DNA of 10,375 nt from Solirubrobacterales bacterium (lineage in GTDB: Bacteria; Actinomycetota; Thermoleophilia; Solirubrobacterales; Solirubrobacteraceae), in NCBI GenBank assembly GCA_015655225.1, contig JAATFK010000344.1, forward strand, positions 1 to 10,375, written 5' to 3'. Position numbers and translations under genes: made by a program. The notes beneath the pieces are model-generated. The model saw only the letters and a list, made by a program, of their open reading frames with translations, was not told where the DNA came from and made no database searches. Shown here piece by piece: positions 1,259-10,375 of the stretch (positions are counted from its first letter, which is position 1; every line of letters begins with the position of its first letter).

Positions 1259-2497
1259 CTAGGCGGTCGCCGGCTCGGCGCTTGCGACGACGCCCGCGTC
1301 GTGCAGCCGCCCGATCTCGCCGGGCGCCAGCCCGAGGACGTCCGCCAGGACCTCCTCGGTGTGCTCGCCGAGCCGCGGCGCGCGGCGCGCCGGCAGGCGC
1401 TCGAGCGCGTCGAAGTCGAGCGGCGAGGAGGGCATCAGGTAGGTCCCGATCCCCGGCTGCTCGACCGGCTCGAACATCGGGTTCTCGACGGAGACGCGCG
1501 GGTCCTCGGTGACGAGCTGGCGGAACGTCTGGTACGGGCCCCACGAGACGCTCGTGCGCTCGAACGCCTCGCGTATCTCGCCGAGGTCGCGGGCCGCGAA
1601 CCACGGCCGCAGCATCGCCGTGATCAGGTCGCGGGCGCCGAAGCGGCCGGCCTCGGTCGAGAGGTCGTGCCCGGTCGCCTGCTCGATGCTCGCGCAGGCG
1701 GGACCGATCCCGGTCACCTCCTGCAGCGCGGTCCACTGGCGCGGCGTGAGCGCGACGACCATCACGCGACGGCCGTCGCGGGTCGAGAAGTCGTGCCCGA
1801 ACGCGCCGTAGAGGTAGTTGCCGTCCTTCGGCTGGTCCTGGGCGCCGAGCTGGGCCTCCGCGATCCGGCCGAGGTTGCCGACCATCGCGAACGCGACGTC
1901 GGAGAGCGCGAGCCGCACGAGCGTGCCCTCGCCGGTCAGCCGGCGGCGCCGCTCGGCCGCCAGCAGGCCGGTCGTCGCGAGCGTCCCCATCGCCACGTCC
2001 CATGCCGGCAGGACGCTGTTGAGCGGCTCCGCGAGGTTGCGCGGGCCGGTCGCCCAGGGGAAGCCGGTCGCCGGGTTGACGGTGTAGTCGACCTCGCTGG
2101 AGCCGTCGCGGTTGCCGGTCAGCGCGACCATCACGATGTCCTCGCGGAGCGCTCTCATCGCCTCGTAGGAGAGCCAGCCGCGGGCCGGGAAGTTCGTCAG
2201 GAAGAGGCCGGCGTCCTCGCCCGGCGCGCCCACGAGCGCCTGCACCAGCTCGCGTCCCTCGGCATGGTGGAGGTCGACCTGGATCGAGCGCTTGCCCTTG
2301 TTCAAGCCGGCCCAGAAGAGGCTCACGCCGCTCTCCGACAGCGGCCAGCGGTCGCGGTCGAGGCCGCCGCCGATCTGGTCGAAGCGGATCACGTCGGCGC
2401 CCAGCTGGGCGAGCGTCATGCCGCCGAGCGGCGCCGCCACGAACGCGGAGCCCTCGACCACGCGCAGGCCCGCGAGGATCCCGCCCTGGCCGCTCAC
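1259..2497 (-). CDS. mct: Mct-like 2-methylfumaryl-CoA isomerase (mesaconyl-CoA C1-C4 CoA transferase), CaiB/BaiF family III
   Basis: This 412-residue cytoplasmic enzyme has the family III CoA-transferase fold. From memory it matches Chloroflexus Mct along its whole length, including LRVVEGSAFVAAPLGGMTLA near the N-terminus, SLFWAGLNKGKRSI (59-72), TNFPARGWLSY (101-111), SEVDYTVNP (134-142), GNYLYGAFG, EQPGIGTYLMPSSPLDF and RLGEHTEEVL. The catalytic Asp is Asp167 in LPAWDVAMG, which aligns with Asp165 of the Chloroflexus enzyme. Mct moves CoA intramolecularly, converting mesaconyl-C1-CoA to mesaconyl-C4-CoA, in the 3-hydroxypropionate bi-cycle. The GTG start overlaps the hydratase stop as GTGA (2494-2497), so translation is probably coupled. 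General CaiB proteins use other acids, but the similarity here is much closer than to formyl- or carnitine-CoA transferases. Activity in this organism is inferred. Confidence 0.88.
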   Translation of the reverse strand: MSGQGGILAGLRVVEGSAFVAAPLGGMTLAQLGADVIRFDQIGGGLDRDRWPLSESGVSLFWAGLNKGKRSIQVDLHHAEGRELVQALVGAPGEDAGLFLTNFPARGWLSYEAMRALREDIVMVALTGNRDGSSEVDYTVNPATGFPWATGPRNLAEPLNSVLPAWDVAMGTLATTGLLAAERRRRLTGEGTLVRLALSDVAFAMVGNLGRIAEAQLGAQDQPKDGNYLYGAFGHDFSTRDGRRVMVVALTPRQWTALQEVTGIGPACASIEQATGHDLSTEAGRFGARDLITAMLRPWFAARDLGEIREAFERTSVSWGPYQTFRQLVTEDPRVSVENPMFEPVEQPGIGTYLMPSSPLDFDALERLPARRAPRLGEHTEEVLADVLGLAPGEIGRLHDAGVVASAEPATA

Positions 2498-3528
2498 GCG
2501 ACCACCCCCACGAGGCGCCAGTCGAGCACGTCGACCGGCTCGTCGCCGGCGTCGGCGTCGGCTCGCACCGCCGCGACGCGCGAGCGCAGATGCACGAGGC
2601 CGCCGCCGCCCGGCAGCGGCTCACGCCGCTCCAGCTCGATCCGGCTGTGCAGCGTGTCGCCCTCGAAGACCGGCGCCAGGTGGTCGCAGCCGTGCCAGGC
2701 GACGATCGTCGCGAGGCTCGGCAGCGCGCGCGAGAGCTGGCCCGCGGCGACGCCGATCGTGTGGCCGCCGTAGACGAGCCGCTGGCCGCCCTGGCCGGCG
2801 GCGCGGTCGTGGTGGGCCATCGCGACGTTGAGGCTGAGGCGCGCCAGCTCCGGCGCACTGGAGACGACGTCGCCGCCGGCGACGTCCCACGTCGCGCCCT
2901 CCTCCAGCTCCTCGAACGTCTCCCCGGGGACCGCGGCGCGCAGCGCGTCGAGGTCCCAGCCGTCGAGCGGCGCGGCGAGCGTCGCCGCGTCGAACGGCTC
3001 CGCCTCGCCGCCGACCTCGTCGGCGTGGCCGGTCGCGCGCTCGGCGTCCCGCAACGGCAGCATCGCGCAGCGTTCGAAGTCGAGCACTGGACGTCCCTCC
3101 TGGTCGACGGTCACGATCCGCAGGACGGCGAGGCCGGTCGCGGCGCGGTCCGGGCGCACCCGGTTCTGCTTCAGCGCGACGACCGTCGTCGTCGTGTGCA
3201 GCGTGTCGCCGATCGACGGCGCACGGCGCAGCACGAGCCCGCGGTAGAAGAGGTTGGCGATCACCCGCCGCGTCAGCAGCGTCGACTGGCCGATCGCGAC
3301 GTCGCAGACGAGCGCGGGGTGCGCGAGCGCGGCGTCGCGGCCGAGCACGCGCCGCGCGAGCGTCGCGTCGAGCGCGAGCGGGAGGCGCGTTCCGAGGATC
3401 GCCTGGTGCAGCGCGGCGTGACCCTCGGTCAGCGTCATCGCGGGGGCGCGATCCTCGACGGCGCCGCGCTCGAGATCGTCGAAGTACGGGGCCGTCGGGG
3501 GCCGTGTGGGCGTGGTGGGCTCGGTCAT
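2494..3528 (-). CDS. mch: Tandem hot-dog MaoC-type hydratase, Mch/Mcd-like (mesaconyl-C1-CoA hydratase / beta-methylmalyl-CoA dehydratase)
   Basis: The 344-residue product has two hot-dog halves. I chose ATG 3528, giving MTEPTTPTRPPTAPYFDDLE, because the 50 codons upstream are low-complexity and Arg-rich. From memory it lines up with Rhodobacter Mcd over the full length: YFDDLERG at 15-22, TLTEGHAAL, RRVIANLFYRG at 87-97, GDTLHTTTTVVALKQN (108-122 region), VLDFERC, and in the C-half N234-x4-H239, LVYGGH (251-256) and FEGDTL. Length matches Mcd (about 343) better than single-hot-dog MaoC proteins. The family interconverts beta-methylmalyl-CoA and mesaconyl-C1-CoA, whose C1 form is the Mct substrate. 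It is the first gene of a two-gene operon. No clear Shine-Dalgarno precedes the ATG. Exact substrate is inferred from similarity and the neighbouring Mct. Confidence 0.8.
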   Translation of the reverse strand: MTEPTTPTRPPTAPYFDDLERGAVEDRAPAMTLTEGHAALHQAILGTRLPLALDATLARRVLGRDAALAHPALVCDVAIGQSTLLTRRVIANLFYRGLVLRRAPSIGDTLHTTTTVVALKQNRVRPDRAATGLAVLRIVTVDQEGRPVLDFERCAMLPLRDAERATGHADEVGGEAEPFDAATLAAPLDGWDLDALRAAVPGETFEELEEGATWDVAGGDVVSSAPELARLSLNVAMAHHDRAAGQGGQRLVYGGHTIGVAAGQLSRALPSLATIVAWHGCDHLAPVFEGDTLHSRIELERREPLPGGGGLVHLRSRVAAVRADADAGDEPVDVLDWRLVGVVA

Positions 3529-4029: not shown

Positions 4030-5631
4030 CTAGGGCGTCTGGACCGACGGCTCCGACGCCGCGCCCGCGGTCGCGACGTCTCTCGCGTACGTGTGGCGCG
4101 CCTTCAGCAGGATCACCCCGGCGGCGCCGAGGGCGATCAGCATCAGCAGGAAGCTGTACTCGAGCCCGCGCGCGGAGGCCTTCGAGACGCCGTCGCTGTG
4201 CGTGCCGGGGACCGCCTGGTGCGGCGAGATGCCCACGACGAGGTCCGCGATCGCGCCGAACAGCAGCGGGGCGATCGCCTGGCCGACGGTCCGCAGCGCC
4301 GTCCGCACGCTCTCGGCCCGCCCCCAGAGGCCGGCCGGCATGATGTCGAGGCGCGCCGCGTCGAGCGGCGGGTTGGCCGCCGAGAGCGCCGCCGAGCCGC
4401 CCATGAAGAACCACACCGCGGGCCCCAGCGACGGCGTCACGATCCCGATCACGAGCAGCACGGCCGCCACCAGGTAGGCGATCGTCGGCACCCAGATGCG
4501 CGCGTTCAGGACGCCGCGGCGCAGCAGCCCGTCGGTGATCGGCCCACTCACGAGCGTGCCGAGCAGCGCGGCGAGCACGACGAGGCCGAGGACCCCGGTC
4601 GCCTCCGTCTGGCTCGCGCCGTAGTGGCCGCGCACGAAGACGATCGCGAACGTCTGCAGGCCGGTGAGGAAGAAGTAGCCGAGCGCCGACGCGACGATCA
4701 GCACGGTGTTGGTCGGGATGCTGAGGATGTAGCGGACGGCGCGCGGAAGCGACATGTTGTTCGCGTCCTCGCGCAGGACGCGGCGCCAGTCCGGCCGCAC
4801 GCCGTGGGCGCGGACCGCCTCCTCGGCGAGGTTGTCGTCGCGGATCGGCACCGCGTCCCCGTCCTCGGCGAGCGGCGCCTCGCCGCGCGCGGCGCGCTCG
4901 AGGTCCTCGGCGCCCCGTTCGAGGCGGCTCGTGCCGCCCCGCTGGGGCTCCGGCAGCGTTCTCCAGAGCGTGCGGGCGAGGAAGAAGCCGGGGATGCCGA
5001 GCACGAAGAACGCGGCGCGCCAGGAGATCGCGCCCGAGATCGAGCCGCTGATGATGAAGCCGACCGCGGTGCCGCCGATCTCCCCCGCGAGGATGTAGCC
5101 GTAGACGCGCACGCGCTCGCGGACGGGGAAGTAGTCGCCGGTCAGCGAGGCGATCGCCGGGCCCGCGATCGCGGTGACGGCGCCGAGCGCGAGGCGCGTC
5201 AGCAGCAGCGTCGAGTAGGAGCCCGCGAAGCCGCTCGCGAACGACGCGATGCTCCACAGCACGATCGACGCCGCCAGCACTCTGACGCGCGGCAGCCGGT
5301 CGACGAAGATGCCGGCCGGGATCGCGAAGATCGCGCCGACGATCAGCGAGACGGAGCTGAGCAGGCCGACCTGCGTGTTGCCGATGTGCAGCGACGGCTC
5401 CAGCTGGGCGGCGACGGCGCCGACGGTCGAGGCGTCGGCGGTATTGAGCGCGAGCACCGCGCCGAGCAGGAGGATCACGCGCGCCCGCGCGGGACCGCCG
5501 ACCGCGTCGACGACTCTCGCCTCGACGCGACCGCGCGCCCAGCGCAGCAGCGACACCGTCCCGGTCGCCGCGCGCGAGGCTCCGCGACCGAACGTTCCCC
5601 CGGTCCCCCCGCCTGCTCCGTCGCTCGCCAT
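4030..5631 (-). CDS. MFS transporter with long N-terminal tail and large central cytoplasmic loop
   Basis: I chose ATG 5631, giving 533 residues (MASDGAGGGT); the open frame upstream lacks membrane segments and is proline/arginine-rich. A cytoplasmic tail of about 50 residues precedes TM1 (VILLLGAVLAL, 52-62). The first half carries six helices and the MFS motif-A loop GIFVDRLPRVRVL (107-119). A hydrophilic charged loop at about 222-303 separates the halves. The second half runs from IPTNTVLIVASALGYF (305-320) to LLMLIALGAAGVILL (495-509). The N-half (LNTADASTVGAVAAQL, about 62-77) recalls spinster-like or organic-anion MFS carriers, but the substrate cannot be assigned. It is an inner-membrane secondary transporter, single-gene and divergent from the GAP-family gene. 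No strong Shine-Dalgarno precedes the start. Confidence 0.9.
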   Translation of the reverse strand: MASDGAGGGTGGTFGRGASRAATGTVSLLRWARGRVEARVVDAVGGPARARVILLLGAVLALNTADASTVGAVAAQLEPSLHIGNTQVGLLSSVSLIVGAIFAIPAGIFVDRLPRVRVLAASIVLWSIASFASGFAGSYSTLLLTRLALGAVTAIAGPAIASLTGDYFPVRERVRVYGYILAGEIGGTAVGFIISGSISGAISWRAAFFVLGIPGFFLARTLWRTLPEPQRGGTSRLERGAEDLERAARGEAPLAEDGDAVPIRDDNLAEEAVRAHGVRPDWRRVLREDANNMSLPRAVRYILSIPTNTVLIVASALGYFFLTGLQTFAIVFVRGHYGASQTEATGVLGLVVLAALLGTLVSGPITDGLLRRGVLNARIWVPTIAYLVAAVLLVIGIVTPSLGPAVWFFMGGSAALSAANPPLDAARLDIMPAGLWGRAESVRTALRTVGQAIAPLLFGAIADLVVGISPHQAVPGTHSDGVSKASARGLEYSFLLMLIALGAAGVILLKARHTYARDVATAGAASEPSVQTP

Positions 5632-5679
5632 CCGCACAGGGTGACGGGGATTGCCGGACGAGGCGTTGCCGGGGTGCGC

Positions 5680-5697
5680 GTTCACACGGGTGTTGAC
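5680..5697. promoter_or_regulatory. Imperfect 18-bp palindrome upstream of the MFS gene (candidate operator)
   Basis: GTTCACAC (5680-5687), a GG centre, and GTGTTGAC (5690-5697) form inverted arms with six of eight positions matching. A second GTTCAC occurs at 5703-5708, 23 bp from the first, about two helical turns. The element sits 49-66 bp upstream of the MFS ATG, in the 259-bp spacer shared with the divergent GAP gene. It is locally more AT-rich than its surroundings. It looks like a binding site for a dimeric repressor, but no adjacent regulator gene is visible. Confidence 0.3.
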
Positions 5698-5830
5698 GGT
5701 CTGTTCACCAATCAGGGGTCGCCGTGGGACAGACTCGACGGGCGACGCTGCCGCGCCGCGGTCTCGGGGGATGGGGGCCGCACCGAGAAAGGGGGCACCG
5801 CGGCGCGGCGCTCGCCCGGGCCCGGTGCGA

Positions 5831-5870
5831 GGCGGCCGGAGACGGTCCGGGGGGACGACGTCCGGCCGCC
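5831..5870 (+). promoter_or_regulatory. Nested hairpin in the leader of the GAP-family gene
   Basis: GGCGGCCGGA (5831-5840) and TCCGGCCGCC (5861-5870) are a perfect 10-bp inverted repeat. Between them GTCC (5845-5848) and GGAC (5853-5856) form a second stem with a GGGG loop, separated from the outer stem by symmetrical GACG/GACG internal loops. The 40-nt element ends 20 bp before the GTG start at 5891. It could be an mRNA leader structure affecting ribosome access or stability, or a DNA site. There is no U-rich tail, so it is not a classical terminator. Structure is seen; role is inferred. Confidence 0.4.
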
Positions 5871-5890
5871 CCTCCCGGCATGCTGCGCGG

Positions 5891-6556
5891 GTGCTCGCGC
5901 TGATCCTGCTGGTGCTGTCGATCGGGCTCGCGGACGCGGTCAATCCCTCGACCGTCGCGCCGGCACTCGTCCTCGTCACCGGCCCGGGCGGCGCGCAGCG
6001 GCTCGGGCGCTTCACGCTCGGCGTCTTCGTCGTCTCGCTCGTCGGCGGGATCGCGCTGCTGCTCGGCCCCGGGCAGCTCCTGCTCGACGCGCTGCCGCAC
6101 CCGAGCGCCCACGCGAAGCACCTCGGCGAGGCGTTCGGCGGCGTCGTGCTGCTGGCGCTGGCGGTGGCGCTCTGGATCGGCCGCCACCGGGTCGCCGCGA
6201 GCATGGCCGCCGCGGGCGACTCCGACCGGCTCGAACGGGGCGCGTTCGCGCTCGGAGCGGGGATCATGGCGGTCGAGCTGCCGACCGCGCTGCCGTACTT
6301 CGCGGCGATCGCGGCGGTGATCGCGGCGGACGTGCCGCTGCTCGTGCGCATCGCGCTCGTCGCGCTCTACAACGTCGCGTTCGTCGCGCCGCTGCTGGCG
6401 CTGCTGGTCGCGCGCGAGCGGCTCGGCGAGCGCGGCACGGCGCGGCTCGACGCGCTCGGCGCGCGCCTGCGCGAGCGCGGGCCGGCGCTGCTCGCGGGGC
6501 TGCTGGCGGTGCTCGGCGTGGCGGTCGGGCTGGTCGGGGTGATCGGGCTCAGCTGA
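5891..6556 (+). CDS. GAP/Sap-family (sulfolipid-1-addressing-protein-like) six-helix membrane protein
   Basis: I start it at GTG 5891, giving 221 residues that begin directly in TM1 (MLALILLVLSIGLADAVNPS). The upstream open frame is Arg/Pro/Gly-rich and non-hydrophobic; an in-frame GTG at 5825 is a less likely alternative. Features of the LysE-superfamily GAP/Sap group are ADAVNPST in TM1 (14-21), a TM2 GVFVVSLVGGIALLLG (44-59), a central TM after GEAFGG, the conserved ELPTALPYFAAI motif (129-140), and two C-terminal helices. Known members are implicated in moving glycolipids or small molecules across the actinobacterial membrane, though most are uncharacterised. It is divergent from the MFS gene, whose substrate might be related. 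The 3' end converges on the kinase gene. Substrate unknown. Confidence 0.82.
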   Translation: MLALILLVLSIGLADAVNPSTVAPALVLVTGPGGAQRLGRFTLGVFVVSLVGGIALLLGPGQLLLDALPHPSAHAKHLGEAFGGVVLLALAVALWIGRHRVAASMAAAGDSDRLERGAFALGAGIMAVELPTALPYFAAIAAVIAADVPLLVRIALVALYNVAFVAPLLALLVARERLGERGTARLDALGARLRERGPALLAGLLAVLGVAVGLVGVIGLS

Positions 6557-6571
6557 GGGGGGGCGGGGCGT

Positions 6572-6585
6572 CGCCCGGACGGGCG
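6572..6585. terminator. Weak candidate bidirectional terminator between converging genes
   Basis: CGCCCG (6572-6577), GA, and CGGGCG (6580-6585) form a perfect short palindrome in the 31-bp gap between the GAP-family stop (6556) and the kinase stop (6588). A realistic stem is five pairs with a four-base loop. There is no T run on either strand, so intrinsic termination would be inefficient. Its position at a convergent junction is the main argument for it. Confidence 0.22.
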
Positions 6586-6587
6586 CG

Positions 6588-7634
6588 TTACCAGGCCATC
6601 AGCTCGGCGAGGTCCTGGCGCAGGCCGGGGAGCGTGAAGCGGATCCAGACGCGGCGCATGTCGCTGGTCTCGCCGTCGACGTAGCGGCGCATCCCGGTGA
6701 ACGCGAGCGAGATCAGGGCGACCGCGCCGAGCACGGAGAAGGTGCGGACGGCGTCGCGGTCGACCGGGGCGCCGGTCAGCTCCTCGTAGGTGGTGAGGAA
6801 CCACTCCGGGTCGGCGACGCCGCCGAGCAGCGTCGTCTTCGGTCGCAGGTGCTTGCCGGCGGTGTAGGCGAGCGCGAGGTAGCCGAGGTCGAAGCGCACG
6901 TCGCCGTGGTGGGCCAGCTCCCAATCGAGGATCCCGCTGACGCGCCCGTCCTGGAGCAGCAGGTTGCCGAGCCGGAAGTCGCCGTGGACGAGGCCGCCGC
7001 GCTCCTGCGGCGGCTCGTGGGCGGCGAGCCAGTGGAACGCCTCGCGGGTGATCGGGTCGCGCGTGAGGCCGGCGCGCTCGTGCACGTCGCGCCAGCGGGC
7101 GACCTGGTCGGCGAACGTCAGGCGGGGGACGACGCCGGCGAGCGGCGCGACGTCGAGCGTGTGGATCCGCGCGAGGTTCGTGACGACGTCGCGGGCGATC
7201 CCGCGGGGTCCCTCCCAGTCGGCTCTGAGTGCGGTGTGCTCCTGTGCGCGCCAGAGGTTCGGGGCGTCGCCCGGCAGGTGGTCCATCGCGAAGAAGGGGC
7301 CGCCGAAGGGGGAGTCGGTGTCATCGTCGTCGGCGTGGAAGCCGAAGACGCGCGGCGTGCGCACGTCGTGCGCGGTGAGCGCGTCGAAGATCCGGTACTC
7401 CGCCTGGAGGTCGGTGTCGAACAGCCCGTGCGGGACCTTCACGCGGACGACGTAGGAGCGCTCGCCGCCGCCGCCGCTCGCGAGGGTCGCGGCCGCGAGG
7501 TAGGTGTGACGCGAGTAGCCGCCGGCGAGCTGCCGGACGGCGGTGACGCGGTCGCCGGCGCCCAGCTCGCCGTCGCGCCGGAGGACGGCGGTCAGCAGCT
7601 CGCGCTGGGCGGCGGTCGGATCGTCGTCGCTCAC
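6588..7634 (-). CDS. APH-fold phosphotransferase, ACAD10/11- or LvaA-like (candidate hydroxyacyl-CoA kinase)
   Basis: GTG 7634 overlaps the previous stop as GTGA, and a GGAGGG (7641-7646 on the minus strand) lies just upstream, which fixes the start. The 348-residue protein has the kinase landmarks in order: a glycine loop AGGYSRHTYLA (37-47), a strand YVVRVKV with Lys66, a substrate-lid region PFFAMDHLPGD (113-123), the Brenner catalytic motif LVHGDFRLGN with Asp219 and Asn224, and the metal motif ILDWELA with Asp237. This subgroup is found with acyl-CoA genes rather than in antibiotic resistance; relatives include the kinase domain of ACAD10/11 and LvaA, which phosphorylate 4-hydroxyacyl-CoAs. 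Its operon with a crotonase and a small helical protein fits that role. Fold is certain; substrate is inferred. Confidence 0.88.
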   Translation of the reverse strand: MSDDDPTAAQRELLTAVLRRDGELGAGDRVTAVRQLAGGYSRHTYLAAATLASGGGGERSYVVRVKVPHGLFDTDLQAEYRIFDALTAHDVRTPRVFGFHADDDDTDSPFGGPFFAMDHLPGDAPNLWRAQEHTALRADWEGPRGIARDVVTNLARIHTLDVAPLAGVVPRLTFADQVARWRDVHERAGLTRDPITREAFHWLAAHEPPQERGGLVHGDFRLGNLLLQDGRVSGILDWELAHHGDVRFDLGYLALAYTAGKHLRPKTTLLGGVADPEWFLTTYEELTGAPVDRDAVRTFSVLGAVALISLAFTGMRRYVDGETSDMRRVWIRFTLPGLRQDLAELMAW

Positions 7635-8065
7635 GCGGCCCCCTCCAGCTCGGCCGCCAGGAGCGCGACCTCGGCGTCGGCGAGGCGGCGCAGGGCGGCG
7701 TGGACCTCCCCCGCGAACACCGTCGCGGCGGGTGACGCGTCCGCACGGAGCGCGTCGAGCAGGTCGCAGACGACCTCGCCGGCCACACGCGCGTCGCGGG
7801 CCTCCCCGAGGCGGTCGACGAGGTCGGCGCGCTCCCACGCCGTCAAGGCCGCCACGTCTTCCAACGGGAGCACGACCTCGGCGACGAACGCCTCCAGCAG
7901 CGGTCCGTACCCCGCCAGCTCCACCGTCAAGTGGCGCGACGCGCTCGCCGCCGACAGCAGCTGCCCGCGCGCGAACTCGCCGGAGGGGTCGGTGGCGCGC
8001 GCGGCCTCCCGGGCGGTCGCACCGATCGCGGCGACGACCTCGGCGGGCGTCAGGGGGCTGAACAC
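7631..8065 (-). CDS. Small all-helical protein preceding the kinase; possibly DUF6285/LvaB-like
   Basis: The gene begins with GTG at 8065, one base after the crotonase stop, and its TGA overlaps the kinase GTG by 4 bp. The 144-residue product has no Cys, signal peptide or membrane segment. It is rich in Ala, Leu, Glu and Asp and reads as a bundle of amphipathic helices (for example residues 31-52 FARGQLLSAASASRHLTVEL, and the C-terminal ALRRLADAEVALLAAELEG). I do not recognise it confidently. Small DUF6285-type proteins such as LvaB are encoded beside APH-type kinases and are needed for kinase activity; this gene has the size, helical character and coupling expected for such a partner. Sequence similarity to that family is only faint by eye. 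Confidence 0.75.
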   Translation of the reverse strand: MFSPLTPAEVVAAIGATAREAARATDPSGEFARGQLLSAASASRHLTVELAGYGPLLEAFVAEVVLPLEDVAALTAWERADLVDRLGEARDARVAGEVVCDLLDALRADASPAATVFAGEVHAALRRLADAEVALLAAELEGAA

Positions 8066-8066
8066 C

Positions 8067-8957
8067 TCAGCGGCGCCGGCGGTCGAACGGCGGCTCCGCG
8101 TACGGCGGGAAGCCGGTCGGGAGGTCGTCGCTGACGGTCGCCGCGAACGCCGGCGGGCGCTTCTCCAGGAACGACTGCGCGCCCTCGGCCGCGTCGACCG
8201 AGGCGGCGCGCTGCTCGATGTAGATCGACTCCATCCGGTGGGCGTCCATCGGGTGGGCGGCGCCGGCCATCTGCCACAGCAGCTGGCGGTTGAGCGCGAC
8301 CGAGACGGGCGCGCTGCTCGCCACCAGCTCGCGGGCGATCGCGTAGGCGGCGGGGAGCAGCTCCTCGGGCGGGTGGACCGAGCGCACGAGGCCGGCGTCG
8401 AGCGCCTCGGCGGCGTCGAAGATCCGCCCGCTGTAGGCCCATTCGAGCGCCTTGCTCATCCCCACGACGCGCGGCAGGAACCAGCTCGACGCCGCGTCCA
8501 TGCACATCCCGCGCCGGCTGAAGACGTAGCCGAAGCGCGCGGTCTCGGACGCCAGCCGGATGTCCATCGGCAGCGAGAAGGTCGCGCCGAAGCCGACGCC
8601 GGCGCCGTTGATCGCCGCGACGATCGGCTTCAGGCAGCGGAAGATCCGCAGCGAGACGAGGCCGCCGCTGTCGCGGATCACGTCGCCGGGCAGGATCTCC
8701 TCGGTGCCGCGCATTCTCGCGCGCTCGACCACGTCGAAGCCGCCGGCGCCCTCCGAGAGGTCGTAGCCGGCGCAGAACGCGCGGCCACGGCCGGTGACGA
8801 CGACGGCCCGCACGTCGTCGTCCTCGTCAACGAGATCCCACACCTCCACGAGCTCGCGCTCCATCGTCGAGTTCAGTGCGTTGAGTCTGTCGGGACGGTC
8901 CAGGGTGATCGTCGCAACGCCGTCGTCGACGTCGTAGCTGATGGTCGTGAAGGGCAT
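8067..8957 (-). CDS. Atypical enoyl-CoA hydratase/isomerase (crotonase) family protein
   Basis: ATG 8957 has AGGAG (8966-8970) eight bases upstream; the open frame continues further but without family similarity. The 296-residue product shows the crotonase fold: ATITLDRPDRLNALN (15-29), the first oxyanion-hole segment AFCAGYDLS (60-68) and the second, INGAGVGFGATFSLPMDIRLAS (about 116-137). Both glutamates of classical enoyl-CoA hydratase are absent: Thr126 and Phe146 occupy those places. Asp154 in GMCMDAASSWFLPRVVG sits where dienoyl-CoA isomerase and 4-chlorobenzoyl-CoA dehalogenase carry a catalytic Asp. A simple hydratase is therefore doubtful, and an isomerase, dehydratase or hydrolase is possible. 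It heads a tight three-gene unit with the small protein and the kinase, 107 bp after the aldehyde dehydrogenase. Confidence 0.88.
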   Translation of the reverse strand: MPFTTISYDVDDGVATITLDRPDRLNALNSTMERELVEVWDLVDEDDDVRAVVVTGRGRAFCAGYDLSEGAGGFDVVERARMRGTEEILPGDVIRDSGGLVSLRIFRCLKPIVAAINGAGVGFGATFSLPMDIRLASETARFGYVFSRRGMCMDAASSWFLPRVVGMSKALEWAYSGRIFDAAEALDAGLVRSVHPPEELLPAAYAIARELVASSAPVSVALNRQLLWQMAGAAHPMDAHRMESIYIEQRAASVDAAEGAQSFLEKRPPAFAATVSDDLPTGFPPYAEPPFDRRRR

Positions 8958-8965
8958 CGTCGCGT

Positions 8966-8970
8966 CTCCT
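8966..8970 (-). promoter_or_regulatory. Ribosome binding site of the crotonase gene
   Basis: The minus strand reads AGGAG here, eight bases before ATG 8957. It is among the strongest Shine-Dalgarno sequences in the window and decides the start against longer in-frame alternatives. It comes after the hairpin and tandem repeat in the same spacer. Confidence 0.8.
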
Positions 8971-8977
8971 GCCGGGG

Positions 8978-8995
8978 GTCTCGACCAGTCTCGAC
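8978..8995. repeat. Tandem GTCTCGAC repeat with 10-bp period
   Basis: GTCTCGAC occurs at 8978-8985 and again at 8988-8995, so the copies lie on the same face of the helix. They are just upstream of the crotonase Shine-Dalgarno and downstream of the intergenic hairpin on the transcribed strand. They may be activator or repressor half-sites, or chance. Confidence 0.3.
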
Positions 8996-9005
8996 GGCCC
9001 GCCCG

Positions 9006-9041
9006 GGCGGCGGAACTGGACGTTTCGCCAGTCCCGCCGCC
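9006..9041 (-). promoter_or_regulatory. Intergenic 14-bp-stem hairpin between mmsA and the crotonase gene
   Basis: The arms 9006-9019 (GGCGGCGGAACTGG) and 9028-9041 (CCAGTCCCGCCGCC) pair at 13 of 14 positions around an 8-nt loop. On the minus strand, which is the transcribed direction, the one mismatch becomes a U-G wobble, so the RNA stem is continuous. It begins 23 nt after the mmsA stop. No U tract follows, so it is more likely a partial terminator, an RNA-stability element or a processing site than a full intrinsic terminator. It would let mmsA and the downstream unit be expressed at different levels. Confidence 0.5.
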
Positions 9042-9064
9042 GTAGCGACGCGCCGCGACGCGGT

Positions 9065-10375
9065 TCACGCCCAGCGCGTCGTGACGACCTTCGTGCGCGT
9101 GTAGAAGCTGAAGGCATCGTCGCCGTTGGCGTGGAGGTCGCCGTCGATCGAGTCCTTCCAACCGGAGAACGGGAACCAGGCGATCGGCGCGGCGACGCCG
9201 ACGTTGACGCCGACCATCCCGGCCTCGACGGAGTAGCGGTACTCGCGCGCGGCGCCGCACGAGGCGGTGAAGATCACCGAGGCGTTGCCGTAGCGGCTGG
9301 AGTTGACGAACGCGATCGCCGCGTCGAGATCAGGCACGCGAACTAGCGCGAGCAACGGCCCGAACAGCTCCTCGGTCAGGACGCGGTGGCCGGCGGGGAT
9401 CTGGTCGAGGATCGTCGGGCCGAGCTGCGCGCCGCCGGGGCCGGCGTCGTCGGCGCGACCGTCGAGCGCGACCTCGACGCCGTCGTCCTGCGCCCGCGCG
9501 ATCTCGCCGACGAGCCGCTCGCGGGCGTCGGGGCCGACGAGCGGGCAGACGTCGGTGCGGGGGTCGTCGCCGGGGCCGGTGCGCAGCGCGGCGGCGGCCG
9601 CGACGATCCGCTCGCGGGAACGATCCTGCTCCTCCGGCGTGCCGACGAGAACCGCGATCGAGCCGGCGAGGCAACGCTGGCCAGCGGCACCGAACGCCGA
9701 GCCGCTGACACCGGCCGCGAGCAGCGCGGGATCAGCGTCGGGCATCACGACAAGCGAATTCTTCGCGCCACCAAGCGCCTGAACGCGCTTGCCGCGCTCC
9801 GCGCCACGCGCATTGACATAGCGAGCGGTCGCGGCCGAGCCGACGAACGAGACCGCGTCGATCCCGGGATGGTCAAGCAGCGCGTTGACCGCATCGCGCC
9901 CGCCGTGAACGAGGTTGACAAGACCACGCGGCAGCTCCTCGACCCCCTCGATCAGCTCGAGATAGCGCTCCGCGGTCAGCGGATCACGCTCAGAAGGCTT
10001 CAAGACGAAGGCGTTGCCGGTCGCCAGCGCGTAGGGCAGGAACCAGAGCGGAATCATCGCGGGGAAATTGAACGGCGTGATCGCCGCCACGACACCAACC
10101 GGCTGGCGCACCAGCTCGACATCGACACCGGTCGCGATCCCCTCGGGATTGCGGCCTCTGAGGAGATGCGGCGCGGCCATCGCCGCCTCGACCGACTCGA
10201 TCCCACGACCGACCTCGGCGCGGGCGTCGTCGAGCGTCTTGCCCATGTCACGCGTCACGAGCGCCGCCAGCTCGTCCTGGTGGGCGGCGAGCACGTCCCG
10301 CAGGCGGTAGAGGGCGCGAGCGCGGACCTGCGGCGGGGTCGCGCGCCAGGCCGGCTGAGCGGCACGAGCGGCCGC
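9065..10375 (-). CDS. mmsA: CoA-acylating methylmalonate-semialdehyde dehydrogenase (5' end outside window)
   Basis: The frame is open from the right edge of the window to TGA at 9065-9067: 436 visible residues of a family usually about 490-500 long, so roughly 60 N-terminal residues are missing. The aldehyde dehydrogenase landmarks are TPFNFP with the oxyanion Asn (visible residue 103), NAFVLKPSERDP, FVGSAATARYV, and the nucleophile Cys235 in GQRCLAG (codon 9671-9673). The general-base Glu of ordinary aldehyde dehydrogenases is replaced in QALGGAKNSLVVMPDAD, a hallmark of the CoA-acylating MmsA group. It oxidises methylmalonate semialdehyde to propionyl-CoA and CO2, or malonate semialdehyde to acetyl-CoA, with NAD and CoA, in valine, inositol or beta-alanine catabolism. 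The GTG at 10294 is internal, since the family alignment continues beyond it. Confidence 0.93.
   Translation of the reverse strand, partial: AAARAAQPAWRATPPQVRARALYRLRDVLAAHQDELAALVTRDMGKTLDDARAEVGRGIESVEAAMAAPHLLRGRNPEGIATGVDVELVRQPVGVVAAITPFNFPAMIPLWFLPYALATGNAFVLKPSERDPLTAERYLELIEGVEELPRGLVNLVHGGRDAVNALLDHPGIDAVSFVGSAATARYVNARGAERGKRVQALGGAKNSLVVMPDADPALLAAGVSGSAFGAAGQRCLAGSIAVLVGTPEEQDRSRERIVAAAAALRTGPGDDPRTDVCPLVGPDARERLVGEIARAQDDGVEVALDGRADDAGPGGAQLGPTILDQIPAGHRVLTEELFGPLLALVRVPDLDAAIAFVNSSRYGNASVIFTASCGAAREYRYSVEAGMVGVNVGVAAPIAWFPFSGWKDSIDGDLHANGDDAFSFYTRTKVVTTRWA

Follow-up and report, generated by a model that had tools for sequence, protein, structure and literature searches.

What role does an enzyme resembling Mct, the isomerase that moves coenzyme A (CoA) on mesaconyl-CoA in the 3-hydroxypropionate bi-cycle, play in a high-GC actinomycete, and on which isomer does the hydratase encoded with it act? 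The question is raised by a 10,375-nucleotide contig of a Solirubrobacterales bacterium (JAATFK010000344.1, assembly GCA_015655225.1; hereafter the window), the minus strand of which encodes a 412-amino-acid Mct-like family III CoA transferase with a GTG start (1259..2497) and a 344-amino-acid Rv0216/MeaC-type tandem hot-dog hydratase with an ATG start (2494..3528). The two genes share a four-base GTGA stop/start overlap (2494..2497), from which translational coupling may be inferred. The assembly (G000), in which the window is contig C642, comprises 3.9 Mb in 729 contigs and is estimated to be 77% complete. An initial annotation of the window had described these tandem genes, and their coordinates, strand and overlap were confirmed here, as was the tight coupling of an Mct-like transferase to a mesaconyl-CoA-hydratase-like protein in such a genome. 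It had also placed the hydratase before Mct, in the position of the hydratase Mch, and kept Mct apart from the ethylmalonyl-CoA pathway. Our analysis supports a different answer, most likely a route to pyruvate beside an acetate-assimilation pathway, with a hydratase unlike the known one.

The transferase had a single strong match among NCBIfam models, to TIGR04253 (2-methylfumaryl-CoA isomerase; 575.9 bits, E = 4.6e-173), which falls below the curated cut-off of 725, a score reached in none of the 151 genomes of the order that were surveyed. In phmmer searches it scored 570 bits against Roseiflexus Mct (7xkg) and 552 bits against Chloroflexus Mct (8apq), with 61% identity to the latter. Substrate-binding and site-sealing residues have been named for the Chloroflexus structure (PMC9813914; here and below, articles are cited for the portions of their text available to us). 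We aligned 99 family rows with 19 other family III enzymes; the window enzyme retained the equivalents of L43, R47, N100, F101, R104, S132, E133, D135, Y136 and D165, and so has the catalytic Asp and the CoA-sealing and carboxylate-binding residues of an Mct; N100, D135 and Y136 set the Mct family apart from the other family III enzymes. The Asp167 highlighted in the initial annotation aligned with the catalytic Asp165 of the solved Mct enzymes. Thus, the window enzyme shares with Chloroflexus Mct the catalytic Asp, most of the residues that seal in CoA, R47 and Y136, whereas the two differ in three of the residues examined (I74 to Leu, R75 to His and R314 to Ser), in gene neighbours and in clade. 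A quick maximum-likelihood tree was built from 101 rows, with Shimodaira–Hasegawa-like approximate likelihood-ratio test (SH-aLRT) supports and without bootstrap. The window enzyme belonged to a 27-row clade, mainly of Solirubrobacterales (SH-aLRT 100), and the two verified Mct enzymes and that of Accumulibacter fell in a separate 31-row clade (SH-aLRT 99). Its named near relatives came from Conexibacter and other Solirubrobacterales; the counterparts of the two window proteins in Conexibacter woesei show 77% and 85% identity to them. The earlier description of a close Mct homologue was right as to the main features of an intramolecular enzyme, while the expected position within the verified clade was not recovered. 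Given the score below the cut-off and the separate clade, we describe the protein as working like Mct rather than filing it as a TIGR04253 member; its residues indicate that it probably shifts CoA on mesaconyl-CoA.

The hydratase scored highest against Rv0216 of Mycobacterium tuberculosis (2bi0, 302 bits), a structure deposited as a hypothetical protein, cf. 94 bits against MeaC (8hgn) and 88 bits against the Chloroflexus protein (4e3e). It has the mesaconyl-CoA hydratase fold and catalytic residues, including the Asn226/His231 pair of the tandem hot-dog enzymes Mch, Mcd and MeaC; N92, R153, N234, H239, Y253 and G254 are conserved, and six of the eight residues of the MeaC malate site are kept. 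Identity to MeaC/Mcd/Mch (8HGN, 4E3E) was 26–27%. Compared to Chloroploca Mch it showed 32% identity and 89.4 bits, well short of the 511–607 bits of six other strong Mch matches, and a close relationship with Mch was not found. The label Mcd/Mch-type thus describes the fold; at the level of the subfamily the nearest protein is Rv0216, and the window protein is no Mch orthologue. Sequence homology with Meh, the hydratase that follows Mct in the bi-cycle, was likewise not found, as a profile comparison gave 10% probability over 31 columns. The window hydratase represents a subfamily separate from MeaC/Mcd/Mch, of the type found paired with Mct, and its genomic pattern points towards the C4 isomer.

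That pattern was examined in the 151 genomes of the order (Mct at E ≤ 1e-100, hydratase at E ≤ 1e-50), most of which are incomplete metagenome-assembled genomes (MAGs). Mct and the hydratase were each present in 27 genomes, at 28 loci. The hydratase occurred in 24 of the 27 Mct genomes, cf. 3 of the 124 genomes without Mct (Fisher p = 1.7e-21, which is overstated because the genomes are related), and the pairing is beyond chance. Adjacency was counted from search coordinates, because gene calls in the relatives, made with a simple codon-usage script, failed at some loci (e.g. in G129 and G141). A total of 21 of 28 Mct loci had Mct and the hydratase adjoining, with one cut by a contig end. A CitE-family lyase (E ≤ 1e-35) directly adjoined the hydratase at 17 of 28 hydratase loci, an eighteenth being a fragment at a contig start recognised by sight, and lyase, hydratase and Mct were contiguous in 12 genomes. 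We also examined a named collection of 80 loci, the best 80 of at least 565 relatives as ranked against the Chloroflexus sequence, in which distant relatives are consequently under-sampled. Here the bearers of the pair were Solirubrobacterales, members of a Pseudonocardiales-like group, Pseudomonadota and one myxococcal MAG, in which a distant lyase lies upstream of it. Across 33 loci, among them a non-adjacent pair and a genome represented twice, hydratase distances were correlated with Mct distances (r = 0.83). Loci L045 (G084) and L151 (Patulibacter medicamentivorans I11 contig44) carry identical Mct and evidently represent one genome.

The position of the hydratase in the pathway was approached through Meh. 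Briefly, the query was the protein encoded at the meh position in Chloroploca, which scored 228 bits to Pseudomonas itaconyl-CoA hydratase. It matched 3 of the 151 genomes and none of the 27 with Mct; the Meh homologue sought in the window genome was absent at E ≤ 1e-5 from an assembly that is 77% complete. Among 30 further genomes, it matched 0 of 15 that carry the pair and 15 of 15 that do not. These genomes were picked by operon type, so that a match was guaranteed in 11 of the 15 positives, whose picked locus contains the gene; the other four comprised good matches in L124, L119 and L142 and a weak one in L132. One member of the pair-bearing set, L151, duplicates survey genome G084, and L134, L140 and L143 come from the same order. 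Because of this selection and the duplicate, the informative counts are zero among the 27 Mct genomes of the order and zero among 14 new ones. Mch matches above 500 bits were confined to 7 of the 30 genomes, all in the Meh-bearing set. A pathway needing a clustered Mch as in Chloroflexus was rejected, the sole strong Mch match among the 151 genomes (G121, 400 bits) being in a genome without Mct. Complementarity between the hydratase and Meh across genomes makes a position after Mct more likely than the one before it that had first been assigned, and suggests that the hydratase substitutes for Meh.

We propose that the pair catalyses two successive reactions of mesaconyl-CoA. First, the Mct-like enzyme would transfer CoA from C1 of mesaconyl-CoA to C4 of the same molecule; if the published mechanism of Chloroflexus Mct applies, Asp167 would attack the thioester, the acid would turn in the CoA-sealed pocket, and CoA would be handed back at C4. 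Next, the hydratase, in the place that Meh holds in the bi-cycle, would hydrate mesaconyl-C4-CoA to (S)-citramalyl-CoA, from which a lyase of the CitE family would release acetyl-CoA and pyruvate; genes for such lyases lie beside the pair in relatives and at other loci in this genome. A C4 role for a hot-dog fold is reasonable because itaconyl-CoA hydratase is reported to act on mesaconyl-C4-CoA (PMC12290011) and Haloarcula Mch hydrates both isomers, favouring mesaconyl-C1-CoA over the C4-CoA by only ~3.5-fold (PMC5592240). Mesaconyl-C1-CoA might be supplied by the ethylmalonyl-CoA pathway, or by propionyl-CoA and glyoxylate through the reversible lyase and hydratase of that pathway. For the sequence from mesaconyl-C1-CoA through C4-CoA and citramalyl-CoA to acetyl-CoA and pyruvate, with a hydratase that acts mainly at C4, we consider the balance to be about even.

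Evidence on the ethylmalonyl-CoA pathway came from crotonyl-CoA carboxylase/reductase (Ccr), which 129 of the 151 surveyed genomes encode, all 27 with Mct among them. The window genome carries it on contig C623 (438.8 bits, above the cut-off of 378.55) in a gene cut by the contig end. Isocitrate lyase was found in 9 of 151 genomes and in none of the 27. Given these base rates, neither distribution is a strong enrichment, and isocitrate lyase was discarded as an anticorrelate of Mct (0/27 vs 9/124, Fisher p = 0.36, uninformative). The separation of Mct from the ethylmalonyl-CoA pathway sits poorly with these gene contents, although the enrichment of Ccr that speaks against it is weak.

The lyases anticipated by the initial annotation are encoded elsewhere in the genome. 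One, on contig C312, scored 467–472 bits to the solved Chloroflexus and Roseiflexus lyases, fell in the same clade and, judged by these matches, is a Chloroflexus-type malyl/methylmalyl/citramalyl-CoA lyase (Mcl), as used in the bi-cycle; a second is of the Rhodobacter type (229 bits). In a lyase tree that carried a long-branch warning, five lyases from ethylmalonyl-CoA-type loci of the order, including that of the window genome, grouped with the Chloroflexus-type Mcl (support 100), and the pair-linked lyases of the order formed their own clade (support 99). The pair-linked lyases matched RipC/Ccl best among NCBIfam models (182–187 bits, cut-off 375) and Mcl best among solved structures (157 bits). 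As these scores and the clade point different ways, lyase class was rejected as proof of substrate. In the window's genus, the Chloroflexus-type Mcl adjoins a RipB/Ich-like single hot-dog hydratase at L211 (G090, 11116-16965) and L209 (G042, 4793-8424), with 118 and 134 bits, respectively, and a GTP-type phosphoenolpyruvate carboxykinase alongside; L211 also has a succinyl-CoA-ligase-like gene. In a third genome (L212), the single hot-dog hydratase lies a few genes from Mcl. Since 102 of 151 genomes have Ccr and lack the pair's hydratase (129 with Ccr, including all 27 hydratase genomes), another C1 hydratase must exist there, for which the single hot-dog protein is a candidate. At somewhat less than even chances, soil actinobacteria have a side route from the ethylmalonyl-CoA pathway in which Mct, an Rv0216-type C4 hydratase replacing the sequence-unrelated Meh, and a CitE-type lyase would together convert mesaconyl-C1-CoA to acetyl-CoA and pyruvate, so that on balance acetyl-CoA and CO2 yield pyruvate. 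A putative non-autotrophic use, as first suggested for this locus, is a sensible reading.

Several observations weigh against a C4 hydratase in an ethylmalonyl-CoA branch. The hydratase is a closer homologue of Mch, a C1 enzyme, than of Meh. In three of four Pseudonocardiales-like pair genomes it is the only Mch-like protein at E ≤ 1e-8 (the fourth has two), and in this group it could therefore be the C1 hydratase. The single hot-dog proteins scored best with RipB/Ich (118–136 bits, under the cut-off) and so arguably perform the C4 step themselves. These points favour the original assignment, in which the hydratase converts beta-methylmalyl-CoA to mesaconyl-C1-CoA ahead of Mct and a distant or unrelated enzyme hydrates mesaconyl-C4-CoA; its fold, profile and active site are indeed those of Mch/MeaC, and the RipB/Ich-like protein near Mcl could supply the later activity. 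The lack of any Meh/Ich-type match in the pair-bearing and Mct genomes tested (0 of 15 and 0 of 27) and the many Ccr genomes that must use another C1 hydratase make this assignment unlikely in our view. A hydratase active on both sides of Mct would, with a promiscuous lyase, allow three enzymes to convert glyoxylate and propionyl-CoA to acetyl-CoA and pyruvate. The slight isomer preference of Haloarcula Mch, the contiguous three-gene loci and the three activities of Chloroflexus Mcl (PMC3832036) are in keeping with such bifunctionality, which is rendered doubtful by the separate C1 hydratase candidate in the order.

The remaining points against a C4 step concern distribution and substrate. Within the order, Mct occurs without the hydratase in three genomes and the hydratase without Mct in another three; neither the pair-linked lyase nor a single hot-dog hydratase was found in the window genome; and absences are weakened by the incompleteness of most of the MAGs. 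Ccr exceeded the cut-off in 7 of 8 actinobacterial pair-bearing genomes, cf. 0 of 7 from outside the actinobacteria (one reached 290 bits), which makes the ethylmalonyl-CoA link a feature of the actinobacterial users rather than of the pair in general. Substrates may also vary, because some family members lie in unrelated, catabolic-looking clusters: L056 (G042, 4354-16258), with thiolase, HMG-CoA-synthase-like and enoyl-CoA hydratase genes, and L124, L126, L128, L132, L135 and L136, with Rieske-oxygenase-like genes recognised by sight in such clusters. This suggests that part of the Mct family acts on other substrates. The window pair itself might likewise process a different 2-substituted C4/C5 dicarboxylyl-CoA in some catabolic pathway, given that its transferase falls below the TIGR04253 cut-off and that other intramolecular CoA transferases use larger acids (PMC11659651). 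Retention of the mesaconyl-carboxylate binders R47 and Y136, most pocket residues and most of the malate site renders this improbable.

Compared to known systems, the proposed route resembles the glyoxylate half of the bi-cycle (a meh, smtAB, mct, mcl and mch cluster) in the Mct step, the lyase family and the Chloroflexus-type Mcl in the genome; it differs in that no Meh was found, SmtAB and Mch are not clustered, and the hydratase is swapped. The fullest loci, from Chloroflexi, Accumulibacter, Gemmatimonadota and Methylibium, encode Meh, two family III transferases, Mct, Mcl and Mch, the same gene order as in Chloroflexus (PMC3150298). Nine Competibacteraceae-type loci of the named collection encode Meh, a lyase and Mct. 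The same three functions adjoin there, and Ccr was found in three of four such genomes tested, whereas their hydratase is of the Meh/Ich type and that of the window of the Rv0216 type; an ethylmalonyl-CoA pathway has been published for Candidatus Contendobacter (PMC8956781). The itaconate degradation cluster (Ict, Ich, Ccl) shares a mesaconyl-C4-CoA hydratase function and a citramalyl-CoA lyase yielding acetyl-CoA and pyruvate (PMC12290011), and its RipC/Ccl is the best NCBIfam match of the pair-linked lyases. In contrast, the window hydratase is of another family, and a CoA isomerase replaces the itaconate CoA transferase.

Other window genes were rejected as parts of the system: the FAA-hydrolase-like (545-1234, convergent), GntR-type (10-531) and upstream MFS genes had no clustering partner at the loci of 27 relatives under the thresholds of our script, and a GntR-like gene seen after Mct in C. 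woesei (G090) did not cluster with the window GntR-type gene. Positions 6588-10294 of the minus strand encode an APH-like kinase, a 144-amino-acid protein without a family match, an enoyl-CoA hydratase (PRK08260) and a methylmalonate-semialdehyde-dehydrogenase-type enzyme (TIGR01722), the last two over their cut-offs. In a gammaproteobacterial MAG (L147, 7798-8973), a BhcC-like 3-hydroxy-D-aspartate aldolase (300.6 bits, cut-off 690) lies directly upstream of the hydratase-Mct pair, which is a further hint of glyoxylate metabolism.

Partial bi-cycles are known outside Chloroflexi (PMC6593406), and a 2022 survey that used TIGR04253 as a marker reported key enzymes of the bi-cycle in 27 Actinobacteriota MAGs (68.6% mean pathway completeness), suggesting a role in organic-acid assimilation (PMC9802188). 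Mct in Actinobacteriota is therefore already published. As far as our literature searches show, the hydratase swap and the reading as an ethylmalonyl-CoA branch are new: no account of the swap or of an actinobacterial Mct branch of that pathway was found in the text available, and neither is described in the accessible part of a review (PMC8307300). If our reading is correct, three steps would lead from an ethylmalonyl-CoA intermediate to pyruvate in members of a soil-dwelling actinobacterial order. CoA isomerisation, known as a hallmark of a cycle that fixes CO2, would then also serve heterotrophic metabolism, in combination with a hydratase of its own. Genome surveys that infer the bi-cycle from TIGR04253 would in that case have to check for the hydratase partner as well, and the Rv0216 hydratase subfamily would receive its first functional assignment, with a testable reaction.
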